Made by a program: the position numbers and the translations under genes. Shown piece by piece: positions 22,656 through 54,851 of a stretch of 64,000 bases of DNA. The number at the start of each line of letters is the position of its first letter. Positions within the stretch are counted from its first letter, which is position 1. Origin of the DNA: Vanrija pseudolonga (taxonomy: Eukaryota; Basidiomycota; Tremellomycetes; Trichosporonales; Trichosporonaceae); assembly GCF_020906515.1 (NCBI RefSeq), contig NC_085850.1, positions 2,914,001 to 2,978,000 of the forward strand. The letters are read 5' to 3'. The notes beneath the pieces were generated by a model. That model was not told where the DNA came from. It searched no databases and was given only the letters and a program-made list of their open reading frames with translations.

Positions 22656-23617
22656 ATGAGCGACCCGTACTACACTGGCTATGCGCGACCAAAGTCGGCG
22701 GTGGGCCCCGTCTTCCGGTGAGTTGGCGTTGGATGGCGTCGGCGCCGGTGAGCATGCTCGCTCACACGCTGCCCAGCGGCTTCGTTATCGGCCTCGGCAT
22801 CATCTGCTTCCTCGCCTCGCTAGGCTGGGGCGGGTACCGCATCGCCATCATCGCCATGTTCCTAGCCGCGGACGGCACGCCGACCGGCACGTGGGTGTGG
22901 ACGCTCGGCACGCTCATCGAGGGCATCCTCCTCGGGCTGGTCATCGCGCCTATCGCGCTCACGGCGGTGATTTTCGCCGGCAAGCGCACCCCCACGAAGC
23001 GGTGGCGCTGGATCACGACGCTGGTGGTCGGCATCGTCTGCGCGTGCATCATCATCGGCATGCGCGCAGGCTCAAAGGTCGAGGTGGAGAAGTTCTGCAA
23101 GCGCGTTTCGGTCTACTACACCGATTGTGGGTATCTGGTGCGCTGGGCAGCGCTGACGACCTAGACTGCAACAGTATCTGGGGACCGGGTATGGGCATCA
23201 GCGCGGGCGTCGCCGTCGGCATCCTCCTGTGGACTGTGAGTCGCGCGCGAGCCCTCTTCGCCGCAGTTGGCAACGCAACTAACGCCCACCCCCCGCCAGA
23301 TCTTCTTCACCGTCTTCTTCCACAAGAACCAGGCCGTGGGCGGCGCCGCAGGCCACGTCCCAGTGGGCATGCAGCCGCTCATCAACCAGCCGTACCCGTT
23401 CGCGAACCAGGGCTACTCGAACGCCGAGGCGGCGTACGCTCCCCCGCCGCAGCAGACGGCATACGACCCGTACGTGTCCACAGGGCAGTACCCCTACCCC
23501 ACGCCATACGGCAACACGTACGGCGGCAACCGCGAGCTCGACGACAAGGACAGCGTGCACTCTGGCGCCCAGTCGTTGGGCTACGCGCAGGGCGGTGGGC
23601 ACGGGTATGCTAGGTAG
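22656..23617 (+). CDS. Four-TM array protein, member 1
   Basis: Exons 22656-22717, 22777-23126, 23165-23235 and 23300-23617 give 266 residues. Membrane segments: TM1 ~22-50, TM2 ~59-88, TM3 ~98-118, TM4 ~146-170. Between TM3 and TM4 are Cys128 and Cys139, the second within C-NSI-W, the array's C-x3-W signature. The tail (~170-266) is Pro/Tyr/Gln-rich with repeated YP and YG. The TM4 exon is exactly 71 nt, phase 1 in and phase 0 out, as in members 4, 5 and 6. The TM3-end N-I-V-x-R-Y block is absent, making this the most divergent plus-strand member. Topology suggests cytosolic ends and a non-cytosolic cysteine loop. Function unknown. Confidence 0.7.
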
Positions 23618-24886
23618 CGGGGCAGGCGAGGGAGGTGGGGGAGGTGAGGGAGGTGGGGCCGAGTCGACGACGACGACAACCACACGGACTCTGATATGTA
23701 GCATCTTTATAACGTGTCATGGATGTGCAATCATGCAGCGAGAGCGAGCGAGCGAGCAAGCAAGCCGGCAGCAGCATGAAGCGAGGAACGCGCGCCCCTG
23801 CCCGACTCGCTCGCGCCTGACCCAGAACCGCGCAGAACGCCTAGAAGTTACAGAACGACCGCGACACACATGCATGATGCCGAGAGCGACATGGCGGATG
23901 TGTCACGACGCGTCGGTCGCGTCGGCGGCTTCCGCGTCTGTCAGATGGCAACCCGGTCTCGGGGCGCTCGGTGACTACCGCCGTGGTGTGCGCGGTGCAC
24001 GTACTCGCGCGCGCATGTGTAGTGGGCGACGCGCGACGCGATAATCTCGCGCACCACGCACAGCGTGCCGCGGAAGTGCCGACGGGTGCGTAGAGAGCAT
24101 CGCGACGCGCCGCACGACATGGACAGCGCAGCGTCGTGCAGCGTGCAGCTTCTTCAGCAAACAAGTCAGGCGCGAGCAACTGCTGCAACCTCGTCCTCCT
24201 CGTACGCTGCCCGATCACACCGTCACCAACACGGTGCCTCGGCCGCCCCGGCCCACACGCGCAGCGCATGCATAGCGCCGTCGAGGAACACAAAGGAACA
24301 GCAGCCCGCCGCCGCGCCGGGCGCACCGGAGCTGGCGGGCGCGTCTGTTGGTCGCCAGCAACATTGCGCGCGCGGCGCGATGTTTGTTGGGAACGCCGCT
24401 GCCCCGGCCCGGGCCCTCGAGCAAGCATAACGCTGCGCAGGGGTGCTGCCTTTCGCCGTGTTTACACTGCCCTGCTGCCCTTTGGTGCCCTGGTGCTCGT
24501 CGTATGCGAGGCTGAAGGCAAACCTAAAACATAGGCACGAAGGCAGGGCAGGGGGACGGGTTCCGGCGGGGACGAGGCGAGGCAGTGGCGACTGGCGAAC
24601 GGCGTACGTACCGTCCGTCGGCATGAGTTGTTTGTGTTGGTCGACTCTGGCGTTGTGCGCGAGCTGCAGCAGCAGCACGACGACGACGACGACTGGAACC
24701 GGTGCTGACTGTGTGTGTGTGCGGGGCTGTGTGCATGTAATTGTAGACTCGGTGCTGGGTGCTATTGTTGACATCTGCACATCATCCACGACACGACACG
24801 ACGAACACGGCGCGCCAGACACCACCACCACCAGCAGCAGCAACAACAACGACCCCAAAACACCAGCTAGACCGAACACGCGCGCT
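23618..24886. other. Intergenic between members 1 and 2
   Basis: 1,269 bp, very GC-rich, with triplet repeats (ACC, AGC, AAC) at about 24820-24850 in the presumed leader of member 2. A long minus-strand frame (23841-24428) is Arg/Ala-rich noise. No gene is supported. Confidence 0.45.
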
Positions 24887-26185
24887 ATGTCAGCGCTGAA
24901 AAGGTGCGTCAGCGGCACAACTGCCGAGCTTACGCCCAGGCCAGCCGCAGCCCTCGCGGCACTCATCTGCGCCGTCCTCTCCGGCGCGCTGTCCGCCTGG
25001 GCGGGGTGGAAGGCGAGCCAGGTGCACCGTTCAGCCGACAGCACGCCAGGCGTGATGGAGATCCCGGCGAGCGCGGTGCTGGGGGTTGCGTGCTTTGTGT
25101 ATCTCTGGGCGATGGGCGCGATTGCCAGTGTAAGTGGCGCTCAGCGAGCGCAGCGAGCTGTACGCCGCGAGGAAGAACATCGCATGGATGTAACTCACGC
25201 ACGCCCCAGCGCGCACGCCACGCCCACCCCCTGCTCTTCGCCTTCACGGCCTTCTTCGGCCCCGCGGGCGCCATCTACACCATCGTGCTGGCCGCCATGA
25301 ACCTCGTGCACCGGCGCGACCGCGTGCTCTGGGACACGTGTGTGTCCGAGCTGGGCAACAAGACCGAGACTGCCGGTGAGTGGCGGTGGTGGGCGAAGGA
25401 CGCAGATGCAGAAGCTGAAGCCGTCGCCGCAGAGTGCGACCGCGAATGGCACAACCTCTGGCGGCCGTTGACTATCGCTGCTATCGCTGCGGCTGGCCTG
25501 CTGATCGTCCTGACGGTGAGTTGTGCCCCGCCGTACGCCCGACCGCAGCTCACACCCCCAGGCCTACGTCCTCGCGTACCTCCGCCATATCAACGCGGTG
25601 CACGCGGCCAAGCGGCGCACCGAGAACTGGATCGAGAAGGACGCGCTGCGGCGGGACGCGGGCATCGGGCGGCTGGTGATCACGCACCACGTGCCGTCGC
25701 CGTCGTACACGGAGACGAGTCTGCCCATCTCGCCGGCGTCGACGGCGCACCTCAACCCGCACCCTGCGAGCCCGAGCCCGAGCGCGACACCATACACGCC
25801 ATACTCGCAGCAGCGGTACATCCCGCACTCGCGCAGCCAGATGTCGGGCGTGTCTGCGTCGCTGTCGGGCCACCACGGCCCGGCGTACGCGCCAAGCGAG
25901 ACAGTGACCTACTACGACGACTTTAGCGAGACGATGCACTCGGAGAGCGGCGACGCGCGCGCGCTCGACGAGCGCCTTGCCGGCGGCGCAGGCGGCATGC
26001 GCTCCCCGCCCCTGCCGGTCGTCGACGTCGACCGCGAGTTCCAGGAGTACATGTCCGCGTCGGGCCACTCGCGCTCCTACTCGCGCGGCACGACGGCTAC
26101 GGGGTACTACTCGGCGTCGGCGCACTCGGGGTACTACTCTGACGAGGCGGAGCCGCGCACGAGCAAGGTCGGGCGGGCGTTCTAG
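24887..26185 (+). CDS. Four-TM array protein, member 2
   Basis: Exons 24887-24903 (17 nt), 24940-25129, 25210-25515 and 25562-26185; 378 residues. A 36-nt in-frame GT-AG segment inside exon 3 (25376-25411) may also be spliced out. TM1 starts at once (RPAAALAALICAVLSGALSA), TM2 ends GVACFVYLWAMGAIAS, TM3 is LLFAFTAFFGPAGAIYTIVL and is followed by NLVHRRD (~100-106), a degenerate form of the N-I-V-x-R-Y block. Then come Cys113 and, before TM4, AECDREW (C-x3-W overlap). The long Ser/Tyr-rich tail ends S-K-V-G-R-A-F, a C-terminus shared with members 3 and 4. Exon 1 of 17 nt, phase 2, matches member 3. Function unknown. Confidence 0.72.
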
Positions 26186-27256
26186 GGCACGGGGAGGGGG
26201 AGGAGGAGCATACACAGCGGCCGCGGCTGCACAGCACAGGACATTCAGTCGCCACACACACACACCACCCATATACACCCACCTCTATAATGATGCACAT
26301 GTGACGCCCTGACGACACTGTGGAGCAGCGCCAGCGCCAGCGCCCCAGAGAACCGGGAGTGCCGAGAGGACGATGAGAAATCAAGGTGCGTTGCGTAGCC
26401 TGCTGTCGTTCCATAGCGACGGCGTGTGGGCTGGTCGGGGCAGCGGCGGCGGCGACGACGACGACTGACGATGGTGTGTTCGCGTAGACGACGGTTACAG
26501 AGCATGGTGGTGCACCCTTGATCGTTCATTAGGAGAGGGTGGGCGCGGCGCTGGGCGCGTGGACTGCAGCGGGCAGAGGAGGCAGAGGAGGCAGGCACAA
26601 GTGCAGGGAGACTTGTCAAGTGCCACCACACCCTAGCGTTTCATCGACGATGAGACGCCAGGGGGTGGGTGGAGTGATGCCTTGGGTGGTATGCCTGCAT
26701 CCCCGTGGCCATTGTCCTCTCTGCGTCTGCCCCCCCATGATCCTCTCCAGCTCTGCTCCTCCCCCCTTGTCCCCCCCCCCCTCCCCCGTCCCCCTCCCGC
26801 GACCCCAGTCTCAGTTTCCTGCACCTCACCCCTCCCCTCCCTGCACTGCGCTTGACGAGCTACTCACCTCTACGGCCCCAGGTTTGCCGCAGACCCCCGC
26901 CTCTGACGCAACAAGCTCACACCCCCCACGTCACAGACTCAAGCTCTGAGCTCACACACCACACCCTGCCCTGTGCAGGCTCTGGCTCTGGCTCAGCACC
27001 GTCGCTCGCCTTGCCGCCCTTGGCTGCTGCCCACACACTCTCTCAGCTCACAGCTCACACACTCTCAAACGACCAACCTTGAACAGTCTCTACGCAACAA
27101 CGACCAATCGATGCCTTTCGTAACACTGCACTCTTCACAACTACTACTTACTCAAAACGTCTCGACTTCGTCCCGGTCAGCCAGCGACGACGACGACGAC
27201 CACGACGACGGGGCGAGCAGCCCACAAGCAGCAACTTGTCCACGACGACTATAATC
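26186..27256. other. Intergenic between members 2 and 3
   Basis: 1,071 bp. A strong pyrimidine tract (mostly C) lies around 26750-26830, and CT/CA-rich leader sequence precedes the ATG at 27257, with a GAC repeat near 27187-27212. No gene is seen. Confidence 0.45.
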
Positions 27257-28347
27257 ATGTCCCGGTTTAATAGGTGAGCGAGCGCGGCGGCGCGGTGCTT
27301 CCAACGGATCGATCAGATTCGCTGACCACCCTTCCCAGGTGGATGGTCATGGCCGCATGCGTCCTCGCGGCCGGCATCTGCGGCGGCTTTGGCGCATGGA
27401 ACGCAGTAGTCGTGGCGAATGATGGTGAGCGCGTTGGCTGGCGCAGTGCTGAGCGACCCCGCAGACTCCTCGTCGTCCCTCTTTGTCATGGAGATCATCA
27501 CCGCGACGCTCATGTTCCTCGCCATCCCGTTCTTTGCTGGAGCGTTCGCGCACGCTGCAATGGTGAGTCGATGGTCCAGTAACGTCGCAGCTAACCGGCC
27601 AGAAAAAGCAGCGCGCTACGCCGGCCCTGCAGCTCGGCACGCTTGTACTCGGGGTCGCGCCGGCCCTGTTCTACTTTATCGTCCGTTTCGTCGGCAAGGG
27701 CCAAATCACGTTCCGCTGCCGCCTGCGCCCAACGTACGACCAGGTGCAGTCGCTGCCCAAGATGGTCGAGTCTGTCGACCCGGACATCAGGAGCGCGTGC
27801 GACAAGACGTGGGCGGGACAGACGGCCGGAGTGGCTATCGGGTGTATTGCGTTGGTGGCGTGTACGGTGAGTCTGATGGCGTGGGTGGCGTCGTCTTCGT
27901 GACAGGCACGCAGCGATGTCAGCGGCGCGCACGCATACCGCACCATACCACACGATCAACTAGCTCACACAGCGCCAGGTCTACATCGTCGCATACTACC
28001 GTGCCTGCGACGCAGCGTACGAAGCGCACAAGCGGACTGTCGCATACGGGATCCTCACGTACCGCCAGCACGCGCGCCGCGAGCACCGCCGCCGGACGCA
28101 GGAGGCACACGCGATGGCCGCGGCCATGGCACATGTCAACGCGACGCTGCCGTACCCGCCACCAGCGGGCCTCAACGGCGGACCAGATGCGCACTGGGCA
28201 AACGGAGGACTCGAGTCGCTCGCAGGATGGTCGCCACCCCCGAGTTATGACCACACGAGCGGGTGGGAGGGGACCGACAAGCGCGGCGAGAAGCGTATCA
28301 GCGAGGAGGCATCGCCGAGGCCCAGCCAGGTTGGGCTGGCGTTCTAG
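27257..28347 (+). CDS. Four-TM array protein, member 3
   Basis: Exons 27257-27273 (17 nt), 27339-27424, 27465-27562, 27603-27866 and 27979-28347; 277 residues. TM1 ~8-25 (MVMAACVLAAGICGGFGAW), TM2 ~43-66, TM3 ~77-95 ending FIVRFVGK (residues 92-99), the array block. Cys106 opens the loop; C133-DKT-W137 leads into TM4 (GVAIGCIALVACT-VYIVAYY). The tail is Arg/His-rich, then Pro-rich, and ends P-S-Q-V-G-L-A-F. The first three exon boundaries fall at codons 6, 35 and 67, the last two of them the same positions as in member 4, and the VGK block ends at residue 99 in both, so these two are a close structural pair despite low identity. Function unknown. Confidence 0.75.
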
Positions 28348-29194: not shown

Positions 29195-30560
29195 ATGACA
29201 TGGAAGAGGTATGGCGCGGCGCGTTGGGCTGTACTAACGACTAGACCAGCAACGGCCCTCGTCGCGGCGTTCGACGTGGCCCTCGCCATAGGCCTCGGCG
29301 CCTGGACGGCAATCAACCCCCTCCGGGCGTTCGGTGAGTCGAACCAGCGTGAGTCGGCCGCGTGCTCGCTGCGACTACAGTACGGCACTGACTTGTCGCC
29401 CTTTTTTGCTGCTGCAGAGTCCATGGCGCTCGTGGCTATTCTGCAGCTCGTGCTGGCCGTGCTGTTTCTCCTGCTTGGCCCCGTATTCCTTTATGCCGTC
29501 GTGCATGCCGTCATGGTGAGTCGCGCGGCGTGCGCTTGGGGCTAGCTACATAGCTGACATCGCCCAGCGGAATGAAAAGGCCGACCTGTGGCTCCGCTTC
29601 TTCACCGTCATCCCCGTGCTGCTCGTCGCGGCGTGCTGCATCGTGCTGCGCTTCGTCGGCAAGCACCTCATCCAGTCGCAGTGCATCCACTACTTTGAGC
29701 ATGATGCGGATTGGGGGCCGAGTCGTGAGTCGTGGTGGCGGGCGTCGCGTCGAGTCGAGCTGCACTCACACCCCCAGGCTGCCACCACTTCTGGCTACGC
29801 GACACCATCATCTACACTGTATCATGCGGAGTTCTCGTCTTTACAAGTGTAAGCTGCTGCGCCACTTCCCCCCACCTCCCACCCCGTGCTCACCCCGCAG
29901 TTCTTTATAATCTACTACTACGCCCACGTGCACCGCCGCGCCGTCAACCAGCAGCAGGTCGACATGTGGATCACCAAGGCCGCCGAGCAGCGCGACCGCG
30001 AGCTCGGGCTGCCAGAAGTCAAGCTGCAGCGGCGGAAGAGCGAGAAGGGTGACCGGATGCGCGCGGCCGCGCCGTCCCCGGCACCACAGCTGCCGCCCAT
30101 CCCGCGCGTCTACTCGGTCGTGGCAGGCTCGACCGCCACGCTCGACCTGCAGAGCCGGCACCTCGCGCACATGCAGACGAGCCGGCTGAACCCCAACCAC
30201 ACAATGGTCACGGCGGCGGGCGCCAGCGGGCAGAAGTACAGCGAGAACCCCAAGCTGTTCCCGTACCCCGAGAGCTCGAGCGGGCACTCTGACGCGGCGG
30301 TCCGCTCGCCCACGCTCTCGAGCTTCACGGCGAGCGGCAGCATCCAGCACCACCAGGCCCACCACTACAACTACCGCCCCGTCGACCTGCCGTACCACTA
30401 CCCCTACCGCTACGGCGGGTACGGCCAGGGCCCGAGCCTGGCCGCGCTCAGCCAGCACGTCACCGAGAGCTCGGAGTGGGAGGAGGGGCTGGTGGACGAG
30501 TATGGCGCCACGCGCGGCGGGCGGGATCCGAGGGATAGCGAGGTCGGACGGGCACTGTAG
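29195..30560 (+). CDS. Four-TM array protein, member 4
   Basis: Exons 29195-29208 (14 nt), 29245-29333, 29418-29515, 29568-29724, 29778-29848 (71 nt) and 29901-30560; 362 residues. TM1 ~6-28 (RPATALVAAFDVALAIGLGA), TM2 ~36-66, TM3 ~78-95 with CIVLRFVGK at 91-99, Cys106, then C121-HHF-W125-LR at the entry of TM4 (IIYTVSCGVLVFTS-FFIIYYY). The ~220-residue tail is His/Tyr/Ser-rich, with a lysine/arginine patch (KLQRRKSEKGDR), and ends P-R-D-S-E-V-G-R-A-L. The exon ladder is a full example of the array's phase pattern 2-1-0-1-0. Function unknown. Confidence 0.78.
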
Positions 30561-30884: not shown

Positions 30885-31804
30885 CTACGCCGCCCTGACC
30901 ACCTCGTCGTACGACGCTGCGTCGTCGGCATCAGCAACTACGCTCTGGAGGGGAAGGGGGGACTCACGCGGCGCAGCAGCAGGGACGGGCGTCGCGCTGC
31001 CCTCCGTGTCGAAGAAGCCCACGCCGCCATCAAACTCGCCGTCCGCGACGGCCGGCGGTGCGCGGGGTGCAGTGGCTGGCGCCGGGGCCGTAGCGCGCTG
31101 CGGGGGCACTGCAGCTGCGTCAGCGAGCCCTCTTCCTTCCCTTGTTGCTTTGCTCGCGACTCACGCGGCGTACCAGCCACAACAGTCGTAGGCACGTGGC
31201 TCACGCCCTCGGTGTCGAACACGCCGACGCCGCAAAAGTCCTCGGTGGGCGTCTCGGTGCCGCCAGCACCAGCGCCGGCCCGCGCGCCGAACAGGCTGCT
31301 CGAGAGCAGCCGCCAGCCAGCGAGCACCTCACCCCGCACCCCCGCAACCTGGGCCGCGACGTCGCTCTGCACTTTCCCCGCGGTGGCGCCAAGCGCCCCG
31401 CGGACGCCCTCGTACTCCTTCGCGAGCTCGCGCCCCATTGTCCCAGCTTCGCGGGACAGGTCCGCCCCGAGACCAGACAGCTCGGTCGTCATCCCGCGAT
31501 ACTGCGTCGCCCACTCGGCCTGCGCGATCGCGAACGCCGACGCGACGTTGTCGTACGCGGCCGTTAGGGCCGCGGTGGCCTGCGCTGCTGGGTCGGCTTC
31601 GTCGGCCTCGTCGGCCGCGGTGGGCGCTGCGGGCTCGGCCGTGCTCGTCTCGGCCCACGCGGCGGCTGCCTCGTCCTTGTCCTCGTGCGTTGCTTCGTCG
31701 GAGGCGGGGGCGTTACTCGACGATGGAGGCGCCGGCGCTGGTGCCGTTGCCGCCTCCACCGCTGGCGCCGCTGCCGGCGGCACGCTGTCCTTGGTCTGCG
31801 TCAT
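30885..31804 (-). CDS. Ala-rich protein with duplicated FDTEG motif
   Basis: Exons 31165-31804 and 30885-31108 (or 31114) on the minus strand give about 290 residues. I do not recognise it. The N-terminal ~85 residues are Ala/Pro/Glu-rich and disordered. A helical, probably coiled-coil region follows (~85-165: AYDNVASAFAIAQAEWATQY...LSREAGTMGRELAKEYEGVR). Then a short motif occurs twice: GVGVFDTEG, followed after about 14 residues by G-T-P-R-E, and GVGFFDTEG, followed after about 9 residues by A-P-R-E. The end is DDAASYDEVVRAA. No transmembrane segment or signal. It is the only non-membrane gene within the left arm of the four-TM array. A tempting 22-nt GT-AG stretch near the 3' end is too short and out of phase, so I read through it. 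Confidence 0.55.
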
Positions 31805-32677: not shown

Positions 32678-34533
32678 ATGGTGGTCGCGGCGGACAGGAA
32701 TAGCACGCTGAGCTGCAAGGCTCCTCCTTCTCGGCCAATCCGTTCAGTCAGGCGGTGAGTCGCCAGTCGTGGACAGCCGCCACGGCAGTTGCAAGTTGCT
32801 CTCAGGCTAACGCTCGCTCGCTGGCGCCACCAGCATCGTCGCCCTGGTTTTATCTGCAATCTCTGTTTGCTGTGCCTTTGCATTCGGAACAGCTGGCGCC
32901 ATCTGGGCTGGCCAGCTGGGCGAGTATGGTGAGTCACTGGATCTCGCTGGATCGCGCTTGGCGACATTCTCGGCTCCGCTTGGTGTGATCCCACTCCCAC
33001 ACCAGTCCCGTAGGCGTCCGTTTTGTGCGCCTCGACCGACCCGGCAGATTCGACTCCTGGCCTACTGCTTCTGGGTCTGTCACCAGTCCTTGCATGCTTG
33101 TCTGCCTAATGAAAGGACCGAGACTGCTGGAGCGTGTCGGCAGGCTCGATAGCCTCGATGGACCCGAGATGGTGTGCACCGAGAAAAGTTAGCTGATGCG
33201 TCCATCCAGGGGGAATCCAAGGCCAAGGTGTCCTGATAGGGCTCGGCGCGGGCGTCGCTGGCGGACTATTCCTCCTGGCAGGGCTGGGCATAGTCGCCTT
33301 TATGCACGCCATATCAGTGAGTACTAGCTACGCATTGGGACTGGTATTGATGTCTCCAAGTGGGGCCAGACTAGCCGGGGCAAGCGTGCAGTGGTGGCAT
33401 TAACCCCCGTGCTTGGCGCGGCTACAATGACTTGTAACATTGTGAGACGATATGTTTGCAAGGTGGGTGGGTTGGTTTGGTTGGTTGGTTGAGCCGTTGT
33501 CCCATGTCCGACCGACGACGGCGCACAACGCCATGCACAACGTCGTCTGTCTCTGTCCGTCGCCGGCTAACGTTTCGCCGTAGGACACGATTGTGGGCAT
33601 CTGCCGCGAGAAAATCGCAAACGAGCAGCGCCGCGTCGACCCCCTCACTTCCGACTTGACTACCGGTGAGTGGAGCCGTGGTGAGACAGCGATCGAGCAG
33701 ACGCGTGGTTGGTGGTGGCTCGCGCTCGCTCGCTCGCTCGCTGGCGCCGACGACGTGTGTGGCGCTGCAGGGAGTAGCAACTAGCAGGCTAACTGTAAAG
33801 TCTGTACTCTTAACTGGCGCCGAGACAACGCCCTGGCGATAGCGGGAGCTGTGGGCATTGGAGTCATGACGGTGAGTGGAGCTGCGGCGGCAGCGGCAGC
33901 GAGCGGCAAAAGTCGCCCTGCTACCGCACAGTGTCATCATCATGTGGCATCTGGCAGCAGCAGCAGCAGCAGCTGACTGACACCCCGACTAAGGCTTGGA
34001 TCACATACTACTTTGTCGAGGCTGCGTGGTTTGCCGCGCGGCCAGTCCGTTTCGGGGACGCAACCGTGGCTGTCGACCTCACCGAGGACGTCTACCGCCC
34101 GGACGCATTCAGGCCACGACCACGGTCGTTCATCGTGGCGGCAGCAGCAGCAGCTGCTCGGGCACGAGCATTTACCAACAGCCCAACGCCGACGACGACG
34201 CCGGGCGACATGTCAGCCGAGCTGCCGCCGTACGAGGCGACCTCGGCTGCGTCTGCCTCAGACGGGCACGAGGTCGACTTTGCGCTCAGCACCGCGGGGC
34301 ACGGCGGCGGCGGCGGCGGCGGCGGTGGTGGTCGTGGCGGTGGCACGTCGTGGGATGATGGGCATCATGCCGCCGCCCAGCAGGCCCAGCACTACAACAT
34401 GTTTGCCTCCGGTCCGGGCGCGGGGCGTCCGCTCGCCGATCGAAAGGTGCCGCTGCCGGCTGCGCAGCAGCCAGTAAGGAGCACGAGCGAGCGAAGCGAC
34501 AGATCGTGGCTTGTCGTCCGCAACAATGTGTAA
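32678..34533 (+). CDS. Four-TM array protein, member 5
   Basis: Seven exons (32678-32754, 32834-32928, 33210-33316, 33370-33462, 33584-33665, 33801-33871, 33991-34533) all join in phase to 355 residues. TM1 is VALVLSAISVCCAFAFGTAG (~27-46), TM2 VLIGLGAGVAGGLFLLAGLG, TM3 VALTPVLGAATMT running straight into C-NIVRRYVCK (block at 116-124). Cys131 opens the loop; C153-TLN-W157-RR leads into TM4 (AIAGAVGIGVMT-AWITYYF). The tail has an Ala run, a PPY-containing stretch and a run of about ten glycines (34307-34332). TM3 exon 93 nt equals that of member 9; TM4 exon 71 nt equals members 1, 4 and 6. This gene keeps the most complete set of introns and is the best template for the family. Function unknown. 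Confidence 0.78.
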
Positions 34534-34971: not shown

Positions 34972-34989
34972 CAAAGTCAATTGACTTTG
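34972..34989. repeat. 18-bp perfect palindrome
   Basis: CAAAGTCAATTGACTTTG reads the same on both strands. It is AT-rich compared with its surroundings and lies in a convergent 3' intergenic region. Confidence 0.85.
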
Positions 34990-35106
34990 CCCAACTTGGA
35001 TATGCCAAGACGTGGCTGCGATGCGGGACCCACTGGCCTGAGAACGACGTGTCAACAACAAGTAAGCCCAAGTGCGTGCGCAGTCGGTCCGCAGCTGGTA
35101 GGGCCG

Positions 35107-42963: not shown

Positions 42964-44521
42964 TCACGCGGCGTGGCGGATCAAGTTTCGCTCTTCCTCA
43001 CTGTTCCGAGACAGTGTCTGCTCCAGCGGAGCTCCGGCAGTCGGCGTAGCGCGTGGGTTGCTGGCACCCGCCGAACTCCGAGGGGGAGATGTTGGTGGCT
43101 CGTCCATCCAACTGCGCTCCGCCTCTGCCTTCTCCTTTGTCTCAACCGCGCGCGAGTGGTCGTACGGAGGAACCTCATACGCGGGCGCGGAGCCGGGCCC
43201 ACCAGCGGGCGTGTACGGCGGAGCGACAGGCGCGAACGGCGGCGGCTGGTACAGGCCGTTGCTGCCCGGGTACACACCGGCGGGCGGGGGCGGGTTGTTG
43301 GCGTACGGGTTGGCCGGCGTGAACGAGTCGAGGGGGAAGGAGCTAGCGTTCGTGTCCAACGTGCGGCGCGGTGGCTGGCGCCCCGCCGCAACGAGGGACC
43401 ACATGAAGAGGAGCTGGGGTGTTAGCGGCGGTCGTGAGGTTGGGGCGGAGCGGAGTGCGGAGGCGAACAGCAGCTGTAACACAGCTCTCCGCACTTGTCG
43501 GCGAGCCGCGCTAGCGAGGCCGGTGTCTCGGCCCATTGTTTCGCCTGCCTTCCAAGTCCGCTGCTTCCAGCCAAGGTGCCTCCAGTCAAGCAGTCGCTGG
43601 CCTCGCCTTGGGGTAGTGGAGCCACCGGCCGCTGGACCGCTGGACATGGTGGCTCGCGACAGGTTCTCCTTCTCCCAACTTCCCCTCATCTCACTTAGAG
43701 CTGCCCAGCTGCGTCACACCCACTTCCCACTGACTTGACCCGCAGACTTACCGAGAGAACGACAATGATGGCCAGGTAGAAGAAGGTGTAGTTGGTGTTG
43801 CGGCGCCACCTTGCATCGCAGTCTGTTTGGCGTGCGTGGTTAGCAGTGTTCTCAAAGGCACGTGCAGCACCAAACAAGCTGCAACTAAAGCTGCTGCGCG
43901 CCTGTGCGCTCGCCCCAACATATGCCCATCACTCACCAAGCTTCCAGTTGTTCGATCTCGAGTCCTGGTTGCACTGGTCGATAATCTCGCTCTGTGCGCG
44001 AATTAGCAATTAGCCCTGGGCGTCCACCAAACACCGCCGCCTCCCTCGTACCTTTGCGACGTATCGCCAGACGATGAGCACGACGCCATAGGCCATCGTG
44101 AAGGCGATGCCGAGGGGCGCGAGAATACCGACGGTGACCATGCGGGGCACGGCGAGGCGGCACTGCCATGTCAGCTGACTGACTGCGGCTCCCACGGGGC
44201 TGCCTGGGGCGCGACTCACACTCGTGAGCAGGATCACAATGCCGACAGCGACAATGCCAAAGGCCATGCCACCGCGGATGGCGTCAAACGTGCGCGTCTT
44301 GGGTCCGATGTCATCGTTACGGTCGACAAAGGCAGAGATGCCGGCCCAGAAGCCGAACACGACTGCGATGAAGGCGACGATGGCCGCCGTCAGGCTGCGG
44401 ATTAGCTAGGGCCTGCGCGCAGGGCGTACCTTGGCCCGACGACGCTCTGCCGCCCCGTGAAGCCTTGGTTTTGGCGAGCTGCAGGGGGTGTAGTTGGAGG
44501 CCGGGGTGGTGGCGGGGTCAT
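42964..44521 (-). CDS. Four-TM array protein, member 6
   Basis: Six exons on the minus strand (44430-44521, 44220-44394, 44052-44162, 43937-43991, 43752-43822, 42964-43413) give 317 residues. After a Pro-rich N-terminus come TM1 (SLTAAIVAFIAVVFGFWAG), the loop DRNDDIGPK, TM2 (GGMAFGIVAVGIVILLTS), TM3 ending LIVWRYVAK (118-126), Cys133, then C146-DAR-W150-RR and TM4 (FFYLAIIVVLS-LLFMWSLV). The TM4 exon is 71 nt. The Pro/Tyr-rich tail holds P-P-Y-D-H-S-R-A-V-E-T-K-E-K, closely matched in member 7. The loop DRNDDIGPK also matches member 7's DRSNDYVGPK, so these neighbours are a recent duplication. Function unknown. Confidence 0.78.
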
Positions 44522-45017: not shown

Positions 45018-46330
45018 CTATAAAGCATACCCGCCCGGCTCGCGGCGGGCATTGTTGTTGTTGTCCGGGGCGCGGGGCGGCTCCTCGTCCCTCATCCACT
45101 CCGGCATCGTGTCCTTCTCCGTCGTCTCACGCGCGCGGGCGTGGTCGAACGCCGGCAGCTCGTCGCCGCCGTTGCCGTTCCCACTCGCGGGCGCGCCAGG
45201 CGCAAAGGCGTAGCCCTGCGGCCCCGGTGGCGGGCGCACGACCGGGTCCATCTGATAGCTCTGCGCCAGCGCCGCGGTGCGCGCAGCGAACGACGAGCCC
45301 TTCTTGAGCTTGCGCGTCTGGTAGAAGAAGTGCACGAAGATGGCCTGCGGTCAGCGACGCAGGCGCAGCACACTCACGGTCCACAGCCCGATGGCCACGC
45401 TCGCGATGTAAGTCCAGATCGTGATGCGCCGCCAGCGCGACGCGCAGCTCTCGTCTGGTGGTTAGCTAGGTCAGCGAACCCTACCCACCGTAGAACGTCA
45501 GCCCGGCGCCGCCCGCCTGCTCTGTACACGCGGAGATTAACTCGCTCTGGGGGCGTCAGCAGGGCGCGACCAGCAGCAACCCGCCTTGCACACGTAGCGC
45601 CGCACAATGTTGAGCACGAGCGTCGCGGTGCCCAGCAGCGCCGCGAGCACCATGAGGGCCGGCATGAACCGCACGCCGGGGTACGAGCGGCCCGTGGCGG
45701 CGTGCAGCACGCCGACACACGCGCCGACACAGCACAGCACGAGGCAGATGCCGAAGCCGAGCCACATCGACTTGATCTTTGGGCCGACTGCGGCGCGGTT
45801 AGCGATCGCAGCAACCGCCGGCGGCACGTACCATAGTCGTTGCTGCGGTCGAGGAAGGTCGAGATCGCGTACAGCATTGCGCAGACGGCGGCGATGCCCA
45901 TCCATAAGACGTCGAGCCAGCTGGGCGGCGTGTCAGCGGGGGACCCTCTCTGCGGCGCAGCCGTCGCCTCATCGCCTGGTGTCACACAAAGTCGCAACGC
46001 TTCTGGCCTACCCCGCCACCCTGCTGCGCGAGCGACATGTCGTCCGACCACCACGCTGTGTTCGCACAGCGAGCAAGAATCATGCCCCACGCACTCTCTC
46101 CCCGACTCCGCGTCGCCACTGCCCACCGGCTCCACCCAACCTCCACCCGACCGCGGCGACACTCACCGTCCATTACGCTGCCAGAACGTCGGCTGCTGCG
46201 TGTACTGCACCGGCGGGGGGTACTGCGAGAAACCCCCTTGGGGCGGGTATGCGCCGGGGTGGGGGTAGGCGTTTAGCGGCGGCGGCGGCGGCGGCGCGCC
46301 GGGCGGTGGTGGCTGGTACTCTGGGGGCAT
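45018..46330 (-). CDS. Four-TM array protein, member 7
   Basis: Six exons on the minus strand (46167-46330, 45832-45920, 45585-45787, 45489-45546, 45378-45454, 45018-45344) encode 305 residues. The N-terminus is a Pro/Tyr-rich stretch (~1-50), unusual for the array. TM1 is VLWMGIAAVCAMLYAISTFL, then DRSNDYVGPK, TM2 SMWLGFGICLVLCCVGACVG, TM3 ALMVLAALLGTATLVL running into NIVRRYVCK (144-152), Cys159, then C175-ASR-W179-RR and TM4 (IASVAIGLWT-AIFVHFFY). The tail has L-P-A-F-D-H-A-R-A-R-E-T-T-E-K as in member 6. The intron after CK must use a GC donor (GCGGGT at 45584-45579), since the only nearby GT breaks phase. Function unknown. Confidence 0.78.
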
Positions 46331-46694
46331 CAAGTCAGTGGGGTGGACGCGACGGGGAAACAAGAGCAGACTGACGCATTGTTGAGTGATCTGCGCGTTT
46401 ACGCGTCGCCGCCGGGCTGTGCTGTGCGAGAGCGACGTCGGGTGGGGCTTGCGAAGAGTAGAAGTCCAATGCAGCGAGAGAGAGAGAGCTTGGCAACGGA
46501 CAGGTGGAGATGCCTGCATCTTATAACCTTGCCGCGCCCATCCCGCTGCCGTTGTTGTGCCAAGCCATGAAACAAGGCACCCCATGACGGCAACAAGCGG
46601 CGGCACAACCAACAGAGAGGCATCCATCATTATACATCGTCAATAGGTCGTTACAGTACACCTCGACACTCGTATGCAGAACCAGAACCAGTAG
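46331..46694. other. Intergenic between members 7 and 8
   Basis: 364 bp: promoter of member 7 and 3' flank of member 8. A short (GA)n run sits near 46472-46488. No gene is seen. Confidence 0.45.
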
Positions 46695-48092
46695 CTAGAA
46701 CGGCACGCCGCTGACCCGTGGGCGCGGACGAGCAGACTTGCGCTTCGAGCGGCGCGCGTACGCCTCCGAGCCGGCCGTGTGCCGCTTGGACGGGGACGGC
46801 AGCGGCAGCGGGGGCAGGATGCTGGCCGGGCGCCAGCGCACGCTCTTGCTCGACTTTGTCGATTTGCTGCCTGCCGACTTGCGGCTGCCCGCGCTCCGCT
46901 TGCTGAGGTTACTCAGCCGCTTGAGGCTCAGCCTGGGGAGAGGCGGCTCATCCTGCGCGTCGTGGTACTCGCTCCCGTGGGCCAGCGACGACTTGGCGTC
47001 GTGGTACAGCGAGCGGCTCTCGTCGCTGCTCCCTGCGCCGCCCGCCTCGTCCACGCCCTCCCACTCGCCGTCGTCGTCGTTGTTCTCGTGCTCGTGCGCG
47101 ACAATGTCCACGCCGCCGTACACGCTGTCGAGGCTCATCTTGGCCGCGACGTCGAGCTCGGTCGACAGCTTGCTCTTAAAGTCGACGAGCCCCTTCTCCA
47201 CGTCCGTGTCGTACGACGGCAGCTGGCTGCTGCGGATGTACGCCGGCGGCCCGCGCGGGCTCGGCGACCCATACGACGGCAGCGTCGACATGGACGTGTC
47301 TGCCTCAGCCGCGATGGCGTCGGCCTCGGCGTCGCGCTCCTTCCGGTCGGCATAGCCCGTGTCCTTGGTCTCGAGGACAGCCTGCTCGGGCGTCTTGGTG
47401 ATGCCCAGCGCGGCGCGCGCAGCAGCGAGCTGGTTGCTCGCGGCGACCGGGTCCACACGGCGGGGGTGCGCGACCTTGTGGCGCAGGCGGAGGGCGGTGC
47501 GGCGCGTGAGGGAGAGGTAGGCCGCGAAGAGGGCCTAGGGCGGCGTCAGCGCCAGCCAGAGTCACGAGCCATCGCACGTACATTGCACATGAGGACCAGG
47601 AGTGCGGCCGGCACGATCCAGATGCCGTCGATCTCGACGAGGCTGTCGCAGTCCTTGCGGTGCTTGCCGCAGCCGGCGAGGAACGCGCCCTGGCCGCCAT
47701 AGTGCGCGCCGACGCTCAGCGCGAACAGGAAGCACCCGTACACGGCCACCGCGAGGATCGTGAGCGCCGACACGACGCCGCTGCGCCGCACCAGCGCGAG
47801 CACGCCCACGGCGGGGATCCACAGGCCGAGGAACGACGCGAGCGCGAGCACCGTGTTGGTGCCGAGGGCCGAGGACGAGGCTGGAGGTCAGCGCGGCGGG
47901 GCGGGGGAGGCTCGGCCAGACTCGGACTCACCTCGCGCCGTGTGTGCGCGCGACGCGGCGAGCCCGCCCGTCACGATGTCCATGAGCACGCAGAGCGCGG
48001 TGAGGATGCCCACTGCGATGCTGGCGGCGTCAGCGGCTGTCTCTGTTCGTCATCACGCACCGCTCGCCTAGTGGCTTTGGTGGTCTGGTCAT
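46695..48092 (-). CDS. Four-TM array protein, member 8
   Basis: Four exons on the minus strand (48061-48092, 47932-48020, 47582-47880, 46695-47534) give 419 residues. TM1 (AVGILTALCVLMDIVTGGLA), TM2 (VLALASFLGLWIPAVGVLAL), TM3 (ALTILAVAVYGCFLFALSV), a loop with Cys111 and Cys118, then a Trp at 128 starting TM4 (IVPAALLVLMCN-ALFAAYLSL). The N-I-V-x-R-Y block is missing and C-x3-W is stretched, but the 32-nt first exon (phase 2), the 89-nt TM1 exon (phase 1, same size as in members 4 and 7) and the phase-0 intron inside TM4 mark it as family. The tail is the longest and ends in a Lys/Arg/Ser-rich basic stretch. Function unknown. Confidence 0.68.
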
Positions 48093-48486: not shown

Positions 48487-49327
48487 CTATGCAGCGGCCA
48501 TGGCCTCGCCCTGCCCCTGCCTGCCCAGGGCGGCCGCCGTGCGCTGCGCGTTCATCGCGACCCACGGCTGCGGGTCGGTCGTCGCGCGGCCGCTTGACAC
48601 AAAGTAGGCCGCGACGCCGGCCTGGCGGGCCATGTCAGCGAGTCCTCTGGGCCTCTGTTTCAGTCTGACGCGCGACAACGTACCGCTGCGACACAGGCGA
48701 CAACCGACCCGCACCACTGCACGACGGTACCCCGTCGCCAGTCGGCGCTGCACGCCGTCGCATCGTACGTGGGGTCTGGAGTCGGTCAGTCAGTCAGTCG
48801 TCATGTGCCTTCCTTGCAGTGCCCACTCTTGTGGATGCACCATGCCTCAATGGATGTCTGGGGTCAGTCGCGCCCCTGGGGACACTCACCTTCCCGGCGT
48901 AGCGCATGGCGACATTCCATACCGCCACTCCCAGCGGTAGGAGCAGCGACGCGACGAGCGCAGTCGGCACGCATCCCCAGCGCTGGTGGGTGTCAGTTGT
49001 GCCAGCAACAAGCGACAGACATACCTTCTGTGCGTGGATGAGAGCATAGACCGCGGGAACGGCACACAGGAACCACGCAACACAGAGCGCGATGGACGCG
49101 GCCTTGCCACCCGAGTGCGGGGGATAGTCTGGTATCATCAGCTCGCGCTATCCACCCGACGCACAGATGTTCAGTCCCGTCTCCACTGCGGTCTGGATAC
49201 CCCAGCTTATGCTCAGCCCGAGGAGCACCGAGCCCGCGATGGCGCCGAGCACACCGCGTGCGGTTGGCGGGCCGCTGCGCCACTTGCTGGGCAAGGCAGG
49301 CGCGCTCTCTCGCGCTTGCAGCGGCAT
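48487..49327 (-). CDS. Four-TM array protein, member 9
   Basis: Six exons on the minus strand (49156-49327, 49025-49128, 48890-48982, 48827-48857, 48684-48775, 48487-48621) give 208 residues, the shortest member. The usual first intron is absent, so exon 1 fuses the N-terminus with TM1 (VLGAIAGSVLLGLSISWG). TM2 is SIALCVAWFLCAVPAVYALI, TM3 ends VAVWNVAMRYAGK (block at 115-123), then Cys130, then C142-SAD-W146-RR and TM4 (VVQWCGSVVACVAA-AGVAAYFV). The TM3 exon is 93 nt, as in member 5. The tail is only about 40 residues and lacks the Pro-rich region. The loop exon (31 nt) was found by demanding phase and the C-x3-W-RR signature. Function unknown. Confidence 0.74.
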
Positions 49328-49484
49328 GGTGAGGGATGTGAGTTGAGCGTCAGCGGCGATGCATACAACCACCGCCTTTTATCAGTGTGCTTCTCGAGAT
49401 GCAGACACATGACCCGACGTCATGTCGGCTGCGCCGGTTGTACACCGAGATCTCTTCATAGCCTTGCATATGCACGTCCCCCGC

Positions 49485-50639
49485 TTAACACACATGCTCA
49501 ATCTTCTGCCCCGAGCTCTTCTTCGGGCCGAGGTCGCGCGCCACGAGGCGAGTAAACGACTCGATCATGAGCGTGAACAGCGAGCGGGAGAGCGCAGCGT
49601 CCCACCGGCCCTTGGACGCCTCGTCGCGGATAAACGCGTGCTGCGCCTGGACCTCGACGAACTGAGCAGGTGTCAGCGAGCTCGTCCCCCAGTGGCAACG
49701 CCACACAGCTCGCTACTTACCGAGAAAGTCGCTCCTGCATCGTCAAGCGTCTCGCGGATAAGCGTCCGTCCGGCGCGGTCGACGTGCGTGTCCTGCTGGG
49801 TCAGCAGCCTTGATGTCACGCCACCCACCTGCTTGCCGAAGATAAGGACCACCTCACCCTTGCCCGTCAGGTCACCCTTCTTGACCCTGATGAGCGTGTC
49901 GTCCGACTTGCCCTTGCCAAGCGTGGCCGAGTGAACGCTGCGGTGTGAGCTGGAACCTGATCCGACTTGCAGCTCACTCGGTGGCAAAGTAGCAGAATGT
50001 GCTCAGGACGCGGGGGTCGAAGGCCGCCTGGGGTTAGTAGGTGGTCGAATGACGGGGAACCTACGCGGAGAGCCTGTGATGGGGTTAGCAGCCACAGAGA
50101 CCTATGCACCCACCAAGTGGCCGCCGAGACACATGCCGGTCGCGGCGATACGGCCATTGCAGCTGGGGAGGGAAGACAGGAAGTCGATGGAGAGAGTCGC
50201 GTCCTGACGTCAGCTCTCGTGCAAGGTCCCAAGCTAACCTCGTCGTACGCCTCGACAGTCTTCTCAATCTATGCACGTCAGCTTGGCCGCTCCCCGCTCA
50301 GCTCGCCCACCTTGTACTTGTTGCCGCGGTCGGTACCCTCCGTGTCGTAGGGGATAGCTTCGGGTCCCTCGAACTCGTGAAAGCTCGAGGGGAGAGCGAC
50401 GACGTAACCCTCCGAAGCGATGTTTCCAGCGAACCGCTCAACGGGCCCAGTGACCTGGTAGATCTCGGAGAAGACCACACCTGGGGCATTAGCGCCGAGC
50501 GGAGGAAGGGAGACGTACAGCCGGGGAACTTGGCCTCGGGGTAGCCTGGGACGTTGGGCTCGATGATGAAGATCCTGATGGTGCCCGCGCGGCCGTTGGC
50601 CTTGGTTGGGATGTCGTGGTACGAGGTCTTGATAAGCAT
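49485..50639 (-). CDS. Dienelactone hydrolase family protein
   Basis: Nine exons on the minus strand (50519-50639, 50311-50480, 50239-50262, 50114-50203, 50063-50071, 49978-50027, 49829-49937, 49721-49795, 49485-49661) give 274 residues. It is an alpha/beta hydrolase of the DLH type: start MLIKTSYHDIPTKANGRAGT, then VVFSEIYQVTGPVERFAGNI and the nucleophile elbow ATGMCLGGHLALRAAFDPR with Cys in place of Ser. The predicted Asp and His are in the GKGEVVLIFGKQDTHVD and VEVQAQHAFIRDE segments. Family members cleave cyclic lactones or related esters; the substrate here is unknown. A 9-nt exon (50063-50071, encoding ALR) and a 24-nt exon are needed to keep the frame. It sits between members 9 and PAT1. 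Confidence 0.87.
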
Positions 50640-50943
50640 GGTGTGTGGTGGGTTTGTGACAAGAAGATGTGAAGCAGCAGATGGATGTCGATGCCAGTGA
50701 TGCCAGTGACGTACCTCCACTTGCCAACTGCCGCCCAGGCACCGCCGGCTCTGGTCGGTGCCACTTGCCGGGGAAATGGACGCTATCGCCGCGAGTGCCA
50801 CCTGGAGTCGGTCAGTTACCGAGTGCGTCGAGGACAAGCACCTGCCTGGACGCTGCCAAGTCGACCCTCGAGCACCATCAACATCCACAGCTTGCATCAT
50901 CACATCGCACACATCGCATCAGATACCCACACACATACCCACA

Positions 50944-53591
50944 ATGTCAGGCTTCTTCGGCTTTGACACGGCATTACCTGACCGCGGCAAAGCACCCCAG
51001 CAGCCAGGCGGCTTCCAGGGCTTTGCTCAGCCCGGCGACGACTTCACCGGTCTCGGTGGCGCCGGCGCAGGCGAGGAGGAGGACCTGGCCGTCTACCAGT
51101 GGGGTGAGGGTGCCGGTGGCCTCCTCGAGACGGGCGACGACTTCAACGACGAGACGTTCGGCGACGCTGGCGGCTTTGGTGAGCTGGAGCCACAATGTGG
51201 CGCGAGGTCGCGAAGCAACAACGAGCTGACACGTGCAGACGGCGACTTCCAGTTCTCATCACAGCCCCAGCAACAGTCGAGCAAGCCCCGTGTTGCGTCG
51301 ACCAGGTCGCACTTTGGCCCCAAGGCCCATGTCGACCTGTTTGCAGCGACCGAGGATGACTTTTACAGCTCGCGCCCAACGCCCAAGAGTGAGCTCGTCG
51401 GATCCGGAAGGCGACTGACCCCACAGAGTCGAACAAGCCCAGCAAGAAGCAGCAGCAGCGCCAGCCCGAGCCTGAGCCGCTTTGGGCCAAGGCTTCGCCT
51501 GCGAACGCATGGGGTGCTGCTCCCGCTGGCAAGACACATGCCCAGTCCGGATCCATCTCGCGTGCTGCCCCTCCCCCTCAGCAGATCCTGTCGATCGACG
51601 AGATCGAGGCTGAGATGAGCCGCACGAGCATCGACCAGCCGCGCGCTCCCCAGAGCCAGCAGGTCCTTTCGCTCGAGGAGATTGAGAGCCAGCTGGTCGG
51701 TGGCGCCCCTCAGCAGCAGCAGGCCCAACAGCAGCAGCACCACCACCAGCAGCCACCCCAGCACCAGCAGGCATGGCAGCACCCTCAGCAGCACCAGCAG
51801 CCTCCTGCTGGCCCAACACCCCCGCCGCAGGGAGCACAGATCACTCCCCCGCCTGCCGGTCTCCCCGACTCGGGTTACGCCCGTGGCCAGGCCCTTCTTG
51901 ACAGCATGTTCCCCGACCTTGGCTCGGCGGCGCCAGCCCAGCAACAGCAGCACCAGCAGCAGCAGCACTTCCAGGGCCCTCCCCCCGACCAGCGCCAGCC
52001 TTCGCCCGAGGAGCTCGCTCGCATGGAGGCACTGCACCATCGCATCTCGGCCAAGATCGAGGCCATGTCCAAGCACAACAACCTCATGGGCAACTCGGAC
52101 AAGGACTTTATCACCCGTATTCAGCTGTCGCAGCTCGCGTCGTCGGACCCCTACTCGTCCGACTTCTACGCCCAGGTCTACTCGGCGCTCGTGCGCCGCC
52201 GTGAGGCTGCCGATGGCCACGGCCCTGCGCCGACAGTCGTCCAGGTCGCCCCAGGAATGGGCTTTGGTGTGGGCGGTGCCGCCGGCAACCGTTTCGGCAA
52301 GATGGGCACGTCGACGATGCAACGCCTCAACACGCAGGTCAAGAAGCTCGTCTCGACCACGGCCAAGCGCCAGGCGAACATGTCCAATGACGCTCTCCAG
52401 GGCGCCCTCGGCCGTGTCCCCCGCCGCGGAGCTACCCAGGCTGCTCCCCGCCCAGTGCTCGCCGTCCCTCAGGCCCACCGTCCAGAGCACCGTCCGGTCA
52501 ACGTCCTCAACCAGTCGACGGGCATCACCCGCCCTGCGCTTACGCGCAAGCAGGTCATGTTCGCGCTGGAGGAGCTCTACGACGACGTGCTCGAGCTCGA
52601 GCAGATGCGCCGCGACGCCCCGCCCCCGACCGACGTCCCCCGCGTCGAGGCGTGGAACGCTGCTTGCTCTGCCAAGGTCGAGGGCCTGTGGAAGAAGCTC
52701 ATGGTTATGGAGCCCCTGACGATCAGCAACCCCCACCCGTTCATCTCGCTCATCAACCCGCTCAAGGGCCAGCGCCTCTTCCCCCGTCTCCTGCGTCACC
52801 TGCCCCAGCAGCAGGCGCTCACTCTCCTCACGCTTCTCATCGCCACCTACCCCCAGCTCAACGTTGTCGCCCGCGCGCCCCCACCGCCGGTTGCCGACTC
52901 GTCGCTGCTCACCAAGGCCGACAGGCTGGACCGCGCGCAGCGCGAAGCCGAGACCGACTCGTTCCTGCACAACATCATCCCCGGCGTTGACATGCTCATC
53001 AACCAGTGCAACCTTGGCCTCGTCTCGGGTCTCCTTGGCATTGTCGCGCAGCGCATGGAGGTGTGGAAGGTCGCGTCGACGCGTCCCGGTGTGGCACTGT
53101 TCACCGCCTTACTCTCCCGCGCGCAGACCCTCGTCCGTGCGCCGCAGCCCGACCCGAACCATCCCGATCAGCCTGCGCCAGTGGACCCGGCCGAGGTCGA
53201 CCAGTGGAACAAGACGTTTGCCTACCTGCTCCACCTCGTCATGCCCCACCTGCCCGAGCTCTTCCCGTCGTCGCAGGCACAAAAGTTTGCGTTTGGTCCT
53301 GGCGCGTACCTCCTCGGTGGAGACGCTGCCGGCGCGAAGCAGTTCAACGAGAAGGAGGGCATGGAGATGGAGCGCCGCGAGGCCGAGACATGGGCGTTCG
53401 CCGCTGCTCTCGCCGTCAACGCGCCCGAGGGCGAGCAGACCAACCTTGTCGCCGCGCTGCGCGAGAAGATCTTGCATACGGTGCAGGCCGCGCGTGACCC
53501 GCACACGCCACGGGCACGGGCCGAGCTCAAGCTCCGCAACGTGAACATGTTCCTGCACGGCCTTGGCCTCGACGCGTCGATGATTGAGTAA
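50944..53591 (+). CDS. PAT1: PAT1 mRNA decapping activator
   Basis: Exons 50944-51178, 51239-51388 and 51427-53591 encode 849 residues. Pat1 links deadenylation to decapping, bridging Lsm1-7, Dhh1 and Dcp2 in P-bodies. The N-terminus starts MSGFFGFDTALPDR, as Pat1 proteins do, and is acidic. A Gln/Pro-rich region (~240-370, CAG/CAA repeats at about 51700-51985) supplies a low-complexity stretch. The helical C-terminal region includes MSRTSIDQ-type and QVMFALEELYDDVLELEQM segments and the alpha-alpha superhelix (HPFISLINPLKGQRLFPRLL, LLTLLIATYPQLNVV). A 535-codon open frame antisense to it is a codon-bias artefact. Confidence 0.88.
51700..51985 (+). repeat. CAG/CAC triplet-rich region in PAT1
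   Basis: Interrupted CAG, CAC and CCT triplets encode Gln/His/Pro runs. Low-complexity coding sequence that is likely length-variable between strains. Confidence 0.7.
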
Positions 53592-53836
53592 GGGTGTGTC
53601 TGTGTAGTAGTAGTAGTATCAGTCCGAATCTAGTGTCGTATTTTTTAGACACAGCAGCGGCGCGGGAGGCGCGCGCGCGCGCAGAGCGAGAAGATCCAGC
53701 AGATATCCATTGTTATCCATTGATGCACACTAGCATGTGGAGTGAATGGTGGGAGAATGGGAGCAGCGGCGGCTCATGAGTGTTCTACGTGCTAAGGAGG
53801 ATAATATACAGGGCGGCGTGGTGCGTGAGCCGGGTA

Positions 53837-54851
53837 TTAACGGCGGTTGTTGTTGTCGTACTGGGGCGGGCCGTCGGCGAAGGGGTTCTCAGCCTGGTGG
53901 GCGGGGCTGAGGAGGTGGTCGCCCTTCTTTGTGTCGGGGTCGGCGAAGGGGTCAGCCTGGCGGGGTGGCTGCGCGCCGTCGTCGTAGGCGGTATCGTAGC
54001 GCTCGGAGCGGGTGATCTCGACCGAGTTGAAGCCGCGGTTCGCGGCGGGGTTGAGGCCGCGCTCTGCGCCGAACGGCGCGAGGCGGAACGCCTCGTCGGC
54101 ATCAGTGGCGCCGGTCACGAAGCTGCGCGTGTTGGACGTGCGGTCGGCCGCGAAGAGGTAGAACGCGCAGTACGCCGCAAACAACAACACGATCACGCTG
54201 CCGACCCACGCGCCGGCGTTCCACCTGCCCCAGGACGTCTCGCACTCGGCCGCCATGTGCGAGTTGAGCGAGCCGGGGGGGTACGTCTCGCGACAGAGGC
54301 GCAGGAGCTCGTTGATGCCCGCGTACCGGCGCACAATGTTGAACGTGAATGCGGCCACGCCGGAAAAGGCCGCGATGAACGCCAGCAAGCGAAGCTTGAG
54401 GTTCAGGCGCGTGCCCCGCGCGTGGATGAAGACGGCGACGGCGGACAGCGCGGTCGTGTACATGAATGCTGCGGTCAGGCCCGTGAAGACGCGGTACTTG
54501 AGCTGCTCGTTGGCGTTGCGCGAGGTCCAGACTAGAGAGCGGGCGAGCGCGTCAGCGCGAGCTCGCGGGGGTGAAGGGGGGGAAGGCGGCGCCGCATGCA
54601 GCCTCGGGCACGGCATGCCCCCGCCCCTCGGCTACTCACACTTCTTGCTCCGCACCGCCTCAACGGTGAAGACGACGCCAAACGCGCCGCACACGAGCGT
54701 CGCGATGGCCGACACGAGCAGGGTCGTGTTGCTGTAGCACAGTGGTCAGTCACGCGCACGCCGCACGCCACCACACCCCCTCAACCCACCGGTTCATCCA
54801 CGCCGGCGTCTGCTGCGGGCCCATGCTGAAGTTGAACGGTTGTTTCGCCAT
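53837..54851 (-). CDS. Four-TM array protein, member 10
   Basis: Exons on the minus strand 54790-54851 (62 nt), 54640-54731 and 53837-54531 give 282 residues. TM1 is TTLLVSAIATLVCGAFGVVF, TM2 FTGLTAAFMYTTALSAVAVF, TM3 LLAFIAAFSGVAAFTF running into NIVRRYAG (116-123). Cys131 follows, then C148-ETS-W152-GR and TM4 (AGAWVGSVIVLLFAAYCAFYLF). The later introns are lost, so TM2 through tail is one exon; the first exon is 62 nt and phase 2, exactly as in member 1. The tail is charged, with PFADPDTKKGD and PFADGPPQYD repeats. It lies apart from the other right-arm members, beyond DLH and PAT1. Function unknown. Confidence 0.78.

Follow-up and report, generated by a model that had tools for sequence, protein, structure and literature searches.

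A clustered family of four-transmembrane proteins, undescribed so far, in the basidiomycete yeast Vanrija pseudolonga

Introduction

The closest described systems are fungal membrane proteins with four transmembrane (TM) segments. In a survey of fungal tetraspanins, a tetraspanin is defined by a CCG motif plus two further cysteines in the large loop, Tsp2 and Tsp3 are given large C-terminal tails, and paralogs are recorded in Tsp2 only (PMC2278132). The same survey describes Tpl1 as a group of ascomycete tetraspanin-like proteins, found with the profile PF00335 and reported absent from basidiomycetes, with a short tail of 9-17 aa and, in MgTPL1, two introns (PMC2278132). Sur7 is introduced as a four-TM membrane protein in a further paper (PMC5753163).

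Here we analyse ten genes for tetraspan proteins, F1 to F10, in a 64,000-nucleotide stretch of contig 2 of Vanrija pseudolonga (NC_085850.1, positions 2,914,001 to 2,978,000), referred to as the window. On the evidence of their sequences, the ten genes are one family of common descent, and a second cluster of the family lies on contig 6. The family is real, undescribed and, within the limited searches made, known only from Vanrija; it is larger, older and calmer than was supposed in a preliminary description made from the window alone.

Results

A small gene finder trained on the window together with 200 kb from this genome, with subsequent refinement of splice sites by hand, gave ten spliced four-TM models spanning 22656-54851 of the window, the outermost starts being 22656 (F1) and 54851 (F10). 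These models reproduce the count and both ends of the preliminary description, which had placed ten four-TM genes with polar tails here, and all 15 motif strings quoted there are present in the window, NIVRRYVCK twice (at 33436 on the plus strand and 45585 on the minus strand). In each model, four hydrophobic stretches are followed by a polar tail of about 30-260 aa at the C-terminus, though the hydropathy scan splits one of the stretches in two in F1, F4, F5, F7 and F8. A basic block follows TM3 in most members. The TM3-TM4 loop carries a cysteine pair, the first soon after TM3 and the second directly before TM4, in all ten members; nine had been credited with a loop cysteine and C-x3-W, a count that holds for C-x3-W (F8 being the exception) and is too low for the cysteines. 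Paralogs are 15-23% identical to F4, so that the low identity within a fixed architecture noted earlier was borne out. Across the aligned ten members, the two cysteines are the only invariant residues, and a single tryptophan comes close. This sparse conservation speaks against redox proteins or membrane enzymes whose cysteine pair faces the lumen, in place of scaffolds, as do Pfam matches that stay below cut-off and differ between members, and we regard such a function as improbable.

The intron positions connect the ten genes. Six places are shared: one in phase 2 before TM1, one in phase 1 after TM1, two in phase 0 (following TM2, and following TM3 at the RxxxK block), one in phase 1 ahead of the second cysteine and one in phase 0 within TM4. 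Four TM regions, the loop cysteine pair and introns of phases 2-1-0-0-1-0 at these places characterize all ten members and four hand-built models from contig 6 (S1-S4). The full set of six introns occurs in F5 only; one to four are missing from each other window member (two remain in F10, three in F8). The TM4 intron falls in the identical column in nine of the ten members and is missing from F10. Among 42 mapped introns, 102 pairs matched in phase and to within two columns, against 6.7 +/- 2.6 (maximum 18) in 5000 random placements, and likely matches just outside the two-column limit were seen for the first intron of F1, F6 and F8, the second of F7 and the fifth of F9.

Profile comparisons gave the same grouping. 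Leave-one-out hidden Markov model scores were 27-97 bits and exceeded all 500 shuffles (made per member within blocks of 20 residues) for each of the ten proteins, F8 being the weakest. BLAST at E <= 0.01 connected F5, F6, F7, F9 and F10 (F6-F7, E 2e-6; F5-F7, E 1e-6), and genome scans connected P0003 with F10 (E 8.5e-6), P0007 with F7 (E 7.7e-5) and F9 with F10 (E 7.9e-5). Two points weigh against common descent, and would fit unrelated four-TM genes aligned by eye through chance motifs: the hand splicing was done with the motif in view, which carries a real risk of circularity, and F1, F2, F3, F4 and F8 had no direct BLAST link to another member at E <= 0.01. However, six of the ten gene models (F3, F4, F6, F7, F8 and F10) find support in V. 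albida proteins whose annotation is independent of our models, which speaks against circularity, and the agreement of introns in place and phase, the leave-one-out profiles and the BLAST and genome-scan links above make such an artefact barely credible.

The V. albida proteins also bear on the age of the array. The six are 1:1 orthologs in collinear order, 67-80% identical to their counterparts, and the tree gives each pair a support of at least 100/99; counterparts of F1, F2, F5 and F9 were not found in the protein-database searches. Three V. albida locus tags lie between the F8 and F10 orthologs, and three genes are predicted here in that interval; three tags also lie between the F4 and F6 orthologs, where we predict three genes, or four if a low-scoring 48-aa piece at 37104-37356 is counted. 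Paralog splits are deep and mostly poorly ordered, with 10 of 18 inner branches left open. The 1:1, collinear, tree-supported pairs indicate that the duplications behind these six paralogs predate the split of V. pseudolonga and V. albida, and the array is thus old and stable. Between orthologs, TM helices are 72-78% identical and the TM3-TM4 loop 63% of aligned positions, with TM boundaries placed by hand; tails reach 79% of aligned positions, or 69% when gap columns are counted. The tails are unlike between paralogs and preserved within each ortholog pair.

The preliminary description had suggested rapid diversification as in allorecognition families, a suggestion that the six collinear orthologs, with their preserved tails, do not support. 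A surface recognition family (allorecognition, mating or cell contact) with diversifying outer loops could draw on the low identity of paralogs to F4, on the TM3-TM4 loop being the least conserved region between orthologs, and on the clustering of the genes with a second array present. The loops are short, however, their extra divergence is slight and lacks a genome-wide yardstick, and all six orthologs found are 1:1 and collinear, so that we hold this explanation to be unlikely.

The description of an array of ten stood as to a single family, supported by introns and profiles, and fell short as to its extent. A second tandem array of about nine genes, predicted to lie on the minus strand throughout, occupies about 119276-140165 of contig 6 (loci L038, L040 and L042-L045), so that the V. 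pseudolonga family comprises two clusters, one of ten genes (contig 2) and one of about nine (contig 6). With F1 as query, contig 6 gave matches of E 5.5e-10 and 2.0e-9, and a contig-6 protein used as query returned seven genes in the 121-140 kb interval. Ten predicted pieces (about nine genes) all matched a profile of F1 and S1-S4, each at E 2.2e-5 or better; four of the matching genes sit in that profile, and 133-136 kb lies outside the stretches read. S1-S4, the last with an open 3' end, have the family intron phases and places, as far as present, and the family cysteine pair; they share an extra intron near the start, as does F7. Against the F2-F10 profile, S1-S4 and S8 (138754-140165) scored 15-25 bits and exceeded their own 300 shuffles in five of five cases, the margin being narrow for S3 (15.3 bits against 13.9 in shuffles), and reversed S2 scored 14.0. 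S1-S4, S8 and F1 formed a single clade in the tree (100/99). As judged from these sequences, the tie of the contig-6 group to F2-F10 leans on F1 (39.4 bits) and on the introns more than on the scores of the S genes.

A search of 200 kb beyond the window (140 kb on its flanks and 60 kb elsewhere) yielded no further member (best E 0.24). Genome-wide protein scans used F1, F2, F9, the F10 open frame and the orthologs of F3, F4, F6, F7 and F8, omitting F5; as single-sequence scans they give lower bounds on the number of members. A match of the F10 frame at C6:215538 (E 0.007) was dropped, as it falls in a part of the frame outside the spliced protein.

Pfam scans (E <= 1) covered all ten members, each as itself, as an exon frame or as an ortholog. 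No family exceeded its cut-off for the tetraspan proteins scanned, in agreement with the preliminary description, which had expected no annotated profile. PF00335 (tetraspanin) was unlisted for all ten members, PF01284 (MARVEL; cut-off 32.8 bits) was unlisted for any protein scanned, Claudin_2 was listed once (P0007, E 0.97, far under cut-off), and no Sur7 profile was listed. Several sub-cut-off matches that were not family-wide were set aside: TMEM51 on P0007 (E 7.6e-5; 23.0 bits against a cut-off of 25.5), DUF4064 (E 9e-4) and DUF1634 (E 0.0023) on S1, and Anthrone_oxy on P0002 (E 0.003), P0001 (E 0.5) and S1 (E 0.65). With NCBIfam, none of the six V. albida orthologs had a match over cut-off. 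The likeness to tetraspanin topology without a CCG motif, remarked on earlier, was confirmed: CCG is absent from the ten members, from S1-S4 and from nine database proteins.

UniRef names the six V. albida orthologs 'MARVEL domain-containing', a label unconfirmed by PF01284. A genome scan with PF01284 found one gene above cut-off (C1:3551809) and one below, both outside the array. That the family branched off within the fungal MARVEL (Nce102/Tpl1) superfamily and diverged, being kin by descent and not by architecture alone, is a possible but doubtful account of it, given that PF01284 was unlisted for every protein scanned and that C1:3551809 scored 10.8 bits against the F2-F10 profile, inside the range of the controls (shuffled up to 17.4, reversed up to 14.0).

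The structure check proposed for every member was run for two. The predicted structures of the F7 and F8 orthologs, from seven-row alignments, were both four-helix bundles of modest confidence, and Foldseek returned no match in the Protein Data Bank (PDB) at E <= 0.001 for either; many VIA rows of the structure comparison are generic helical bundles, some of them designed. The family profile gave a best E of 0.5 against PDB sequences. Among 5.8 billion proteins, no relative outside Vanrija was found, the matches being Vanrija proteins and two from other assemblies; these searches require exact shared 5-residue words and in part scored the best 8000 candidates, so that distant kin may escape, and absence from other fungi is not claimed. 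No description of this tetraspan family was found in the literature searched, as judged by listings.

The layout of the array is given in Table 1. F1-F5 form a plus-strand block (22656-34533) and F6-F10 a minus-strand block (42964-54851). At the junction of the two blocks lies a 5.6-kb stretch (37357-42963) in which neither a convincing gene nor an Rfam match was found. The piece at 37104-37356 may be the first exon of the neighbouring minus-strand gene. The PPSYDEVVRAA end of the interspersed gene downstream of F4 is a PY-type motif resembling those of some family tails.

Table 1. Family members and interspersed genes of the contig-2 array (positions in the window).
Feature	Position	Strand	Length (aa)	Characteristics	V. 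albida ortholog
F1	22656..23617	+	266	4 TM; CNSIW; nearest kin, contig-6 array	
F2	24887..26185	+	359	4 TM; CDREW; C-terminus PRTSKVGRAF	
F3	27257..28347	+	279	4 TM; FIVRFVGK; CDKTW; C-terminus SQVGLAF	Q8F55_004070
F4	29195..30560	+	362	4 TM; IVLRFVGK; CHHFW; C-terminus SEVGRAL	Q8F55_004071
Interspersed gene, not family	30885..31804	-	270	ends PPSYDEVVRAA; no Pfam match over cut-off	
F5	32678..34533	+	354	4 TM; NIVRRYVCK; CTLNW	
Interspersed gene, not family	35347..36909	-		gene prediction	
F6	42964..44521	-	317	4 TM; LIVWRYVAK; CDARW	Q8F55_004075
F7	45018..46379	-	303	4 TM; NIVRRYVCK; CASRW	Q8F55_004076
F8	46695..48092	-	419	4 TM; two loop Cys; no C-x3-W	Q8F55_004077
F9	48487..49327	-	205	4 TM; NVAMRYAGK; CSADW	
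Interspersed dienelactone-hydrolase-family gene	49485..50639	-		PF01738	
Interspersed PAT1 gene	50944..53591	+		PF09770	
F10	53837..54851	-	282	4 TM; NIVRRYAG; CETSW	Q8F55_004081

F5 is the weakest model (coding score 5.7 for its automatic, partial version). The full model has seven exons and reads open throughout, with long introns and two AAG acceptors; F5 is possibly decaying. Introns of 32-38 bases occur in F1, F2, F4, F6, F7 and F9, one of them (in F7) being GC-AG; this GC-AG intron and a 36-base intron of F4 agree with the annotations of the V. albida orthologs. The F8 protein matches V. pseudolonga LOC62_02G002893 in every residue, which points to that yeast or a very close strain as the source of the window. 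For the remaining nine members, the protein searches, which were limited, gave no V. pseudolonga entry among their matches, and several may therefore be absent from the deposited annotation.

F2, F3 and F4 share the C-terminal end PR.S.VG.A[FL] (26153-26185, 28315-28347 and 30528-30560). VG.A[FL] terminates no other gene among 117 predicted genes, and the last seven residues of F3 and F4 are retained in V. albida; this end may serve as a signal for sorting or for binding. PY-type [LP]PxY motifs occur six times in 1406 tail residues, against 0.39 expected from other genes and about 1 from shuffles; V. albida retains one such motif of F3 and two of F8, and that of F10 is not kept there.

Discussion

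We consider it probable, with some reserve, that these genes are one tetraspan family, duplicated before the V. pseudolonga/V. albida split and retained since, whose products are membrane-organising scaffolds with paralog-specific cytosolic tails. Both termini would lie in the cytosol, and the TM3-TM4 loop would face outside, closed by one disulfide. The proteins may organise the plasma membrane or the secretory pathway, in the manner of Tpl1 and Nce102/MARVEL proteins, each tail recruiting a cytosolic partner of its own; that tails differ between paralogs and are kept within ortholog pairs makes such separate partners probable. The [LP]PxY motifs hint, for F3 and F8, at WW-domain partners such as Rsp5-type ubiquitin ligases in a few members. 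A more speculative alternative, unlikely in our judgement, is that these are Vanrija-restricted tetraspans unrelated by descent to MARVEL proteins or tetraspanins, each paralog a separate membrane platform in which a divergent outer loop, closed by a disulfide, senses a partner at the surface and a private, conserved cytosolic tail recruits an effector of its own.

What is new is the family and its two clusters; the architecture is not. The family gives a testable gene set where databases offer 'hypothetical' or an unconfirmed MARVEL label, and, on the scaffold reading, its common introns and private tails make it well suited to studying the diversification of membrane scaffolds. About 19 Tpl1-like members in two clusters of one basidiomycete yeast would alter the survey picture if likeness reflects descent.

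The Vanrija proteins resemble the tetraspanins Pls1, Tsp2 and Tsp3 in topology and, in the case of Tsp2 and Tsp3, in having large C-terminal tails, and the structure comparison contains rows for tetraspanins; but they have no CCG motif, two loop cysteines as a rule instead of four, and no listed match to PF00335. They share four TM segments with Sur7 and claudin-like tetraspans; the claudin signature lies in the first loop, whereas the conserved cysteine pair of the Vanrija proteins is in the second outer loop. With fungal MARVEL/Nce102 proteins they have in common four TM segments and the UniRef name of six orthologs, but no PF01284 match, and the genome's own over-cut-off MARVEL gene, a single open frame with no loop cysteine pair, is unlike the array members. 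The likeness to Tpl1, as that group is described in the survey, is one of loop plan: four TM segments, short first and TM2-TM3 loops, a larger TM3-TM4 loop, two conserved cysteines near TM3 and TM4 (in ten of ten window members) and no CCG. Unlike Tpl1, the Vanrija proteins have long tails at the upper end of their range, and their genes are clustered and hold six intron places in common.

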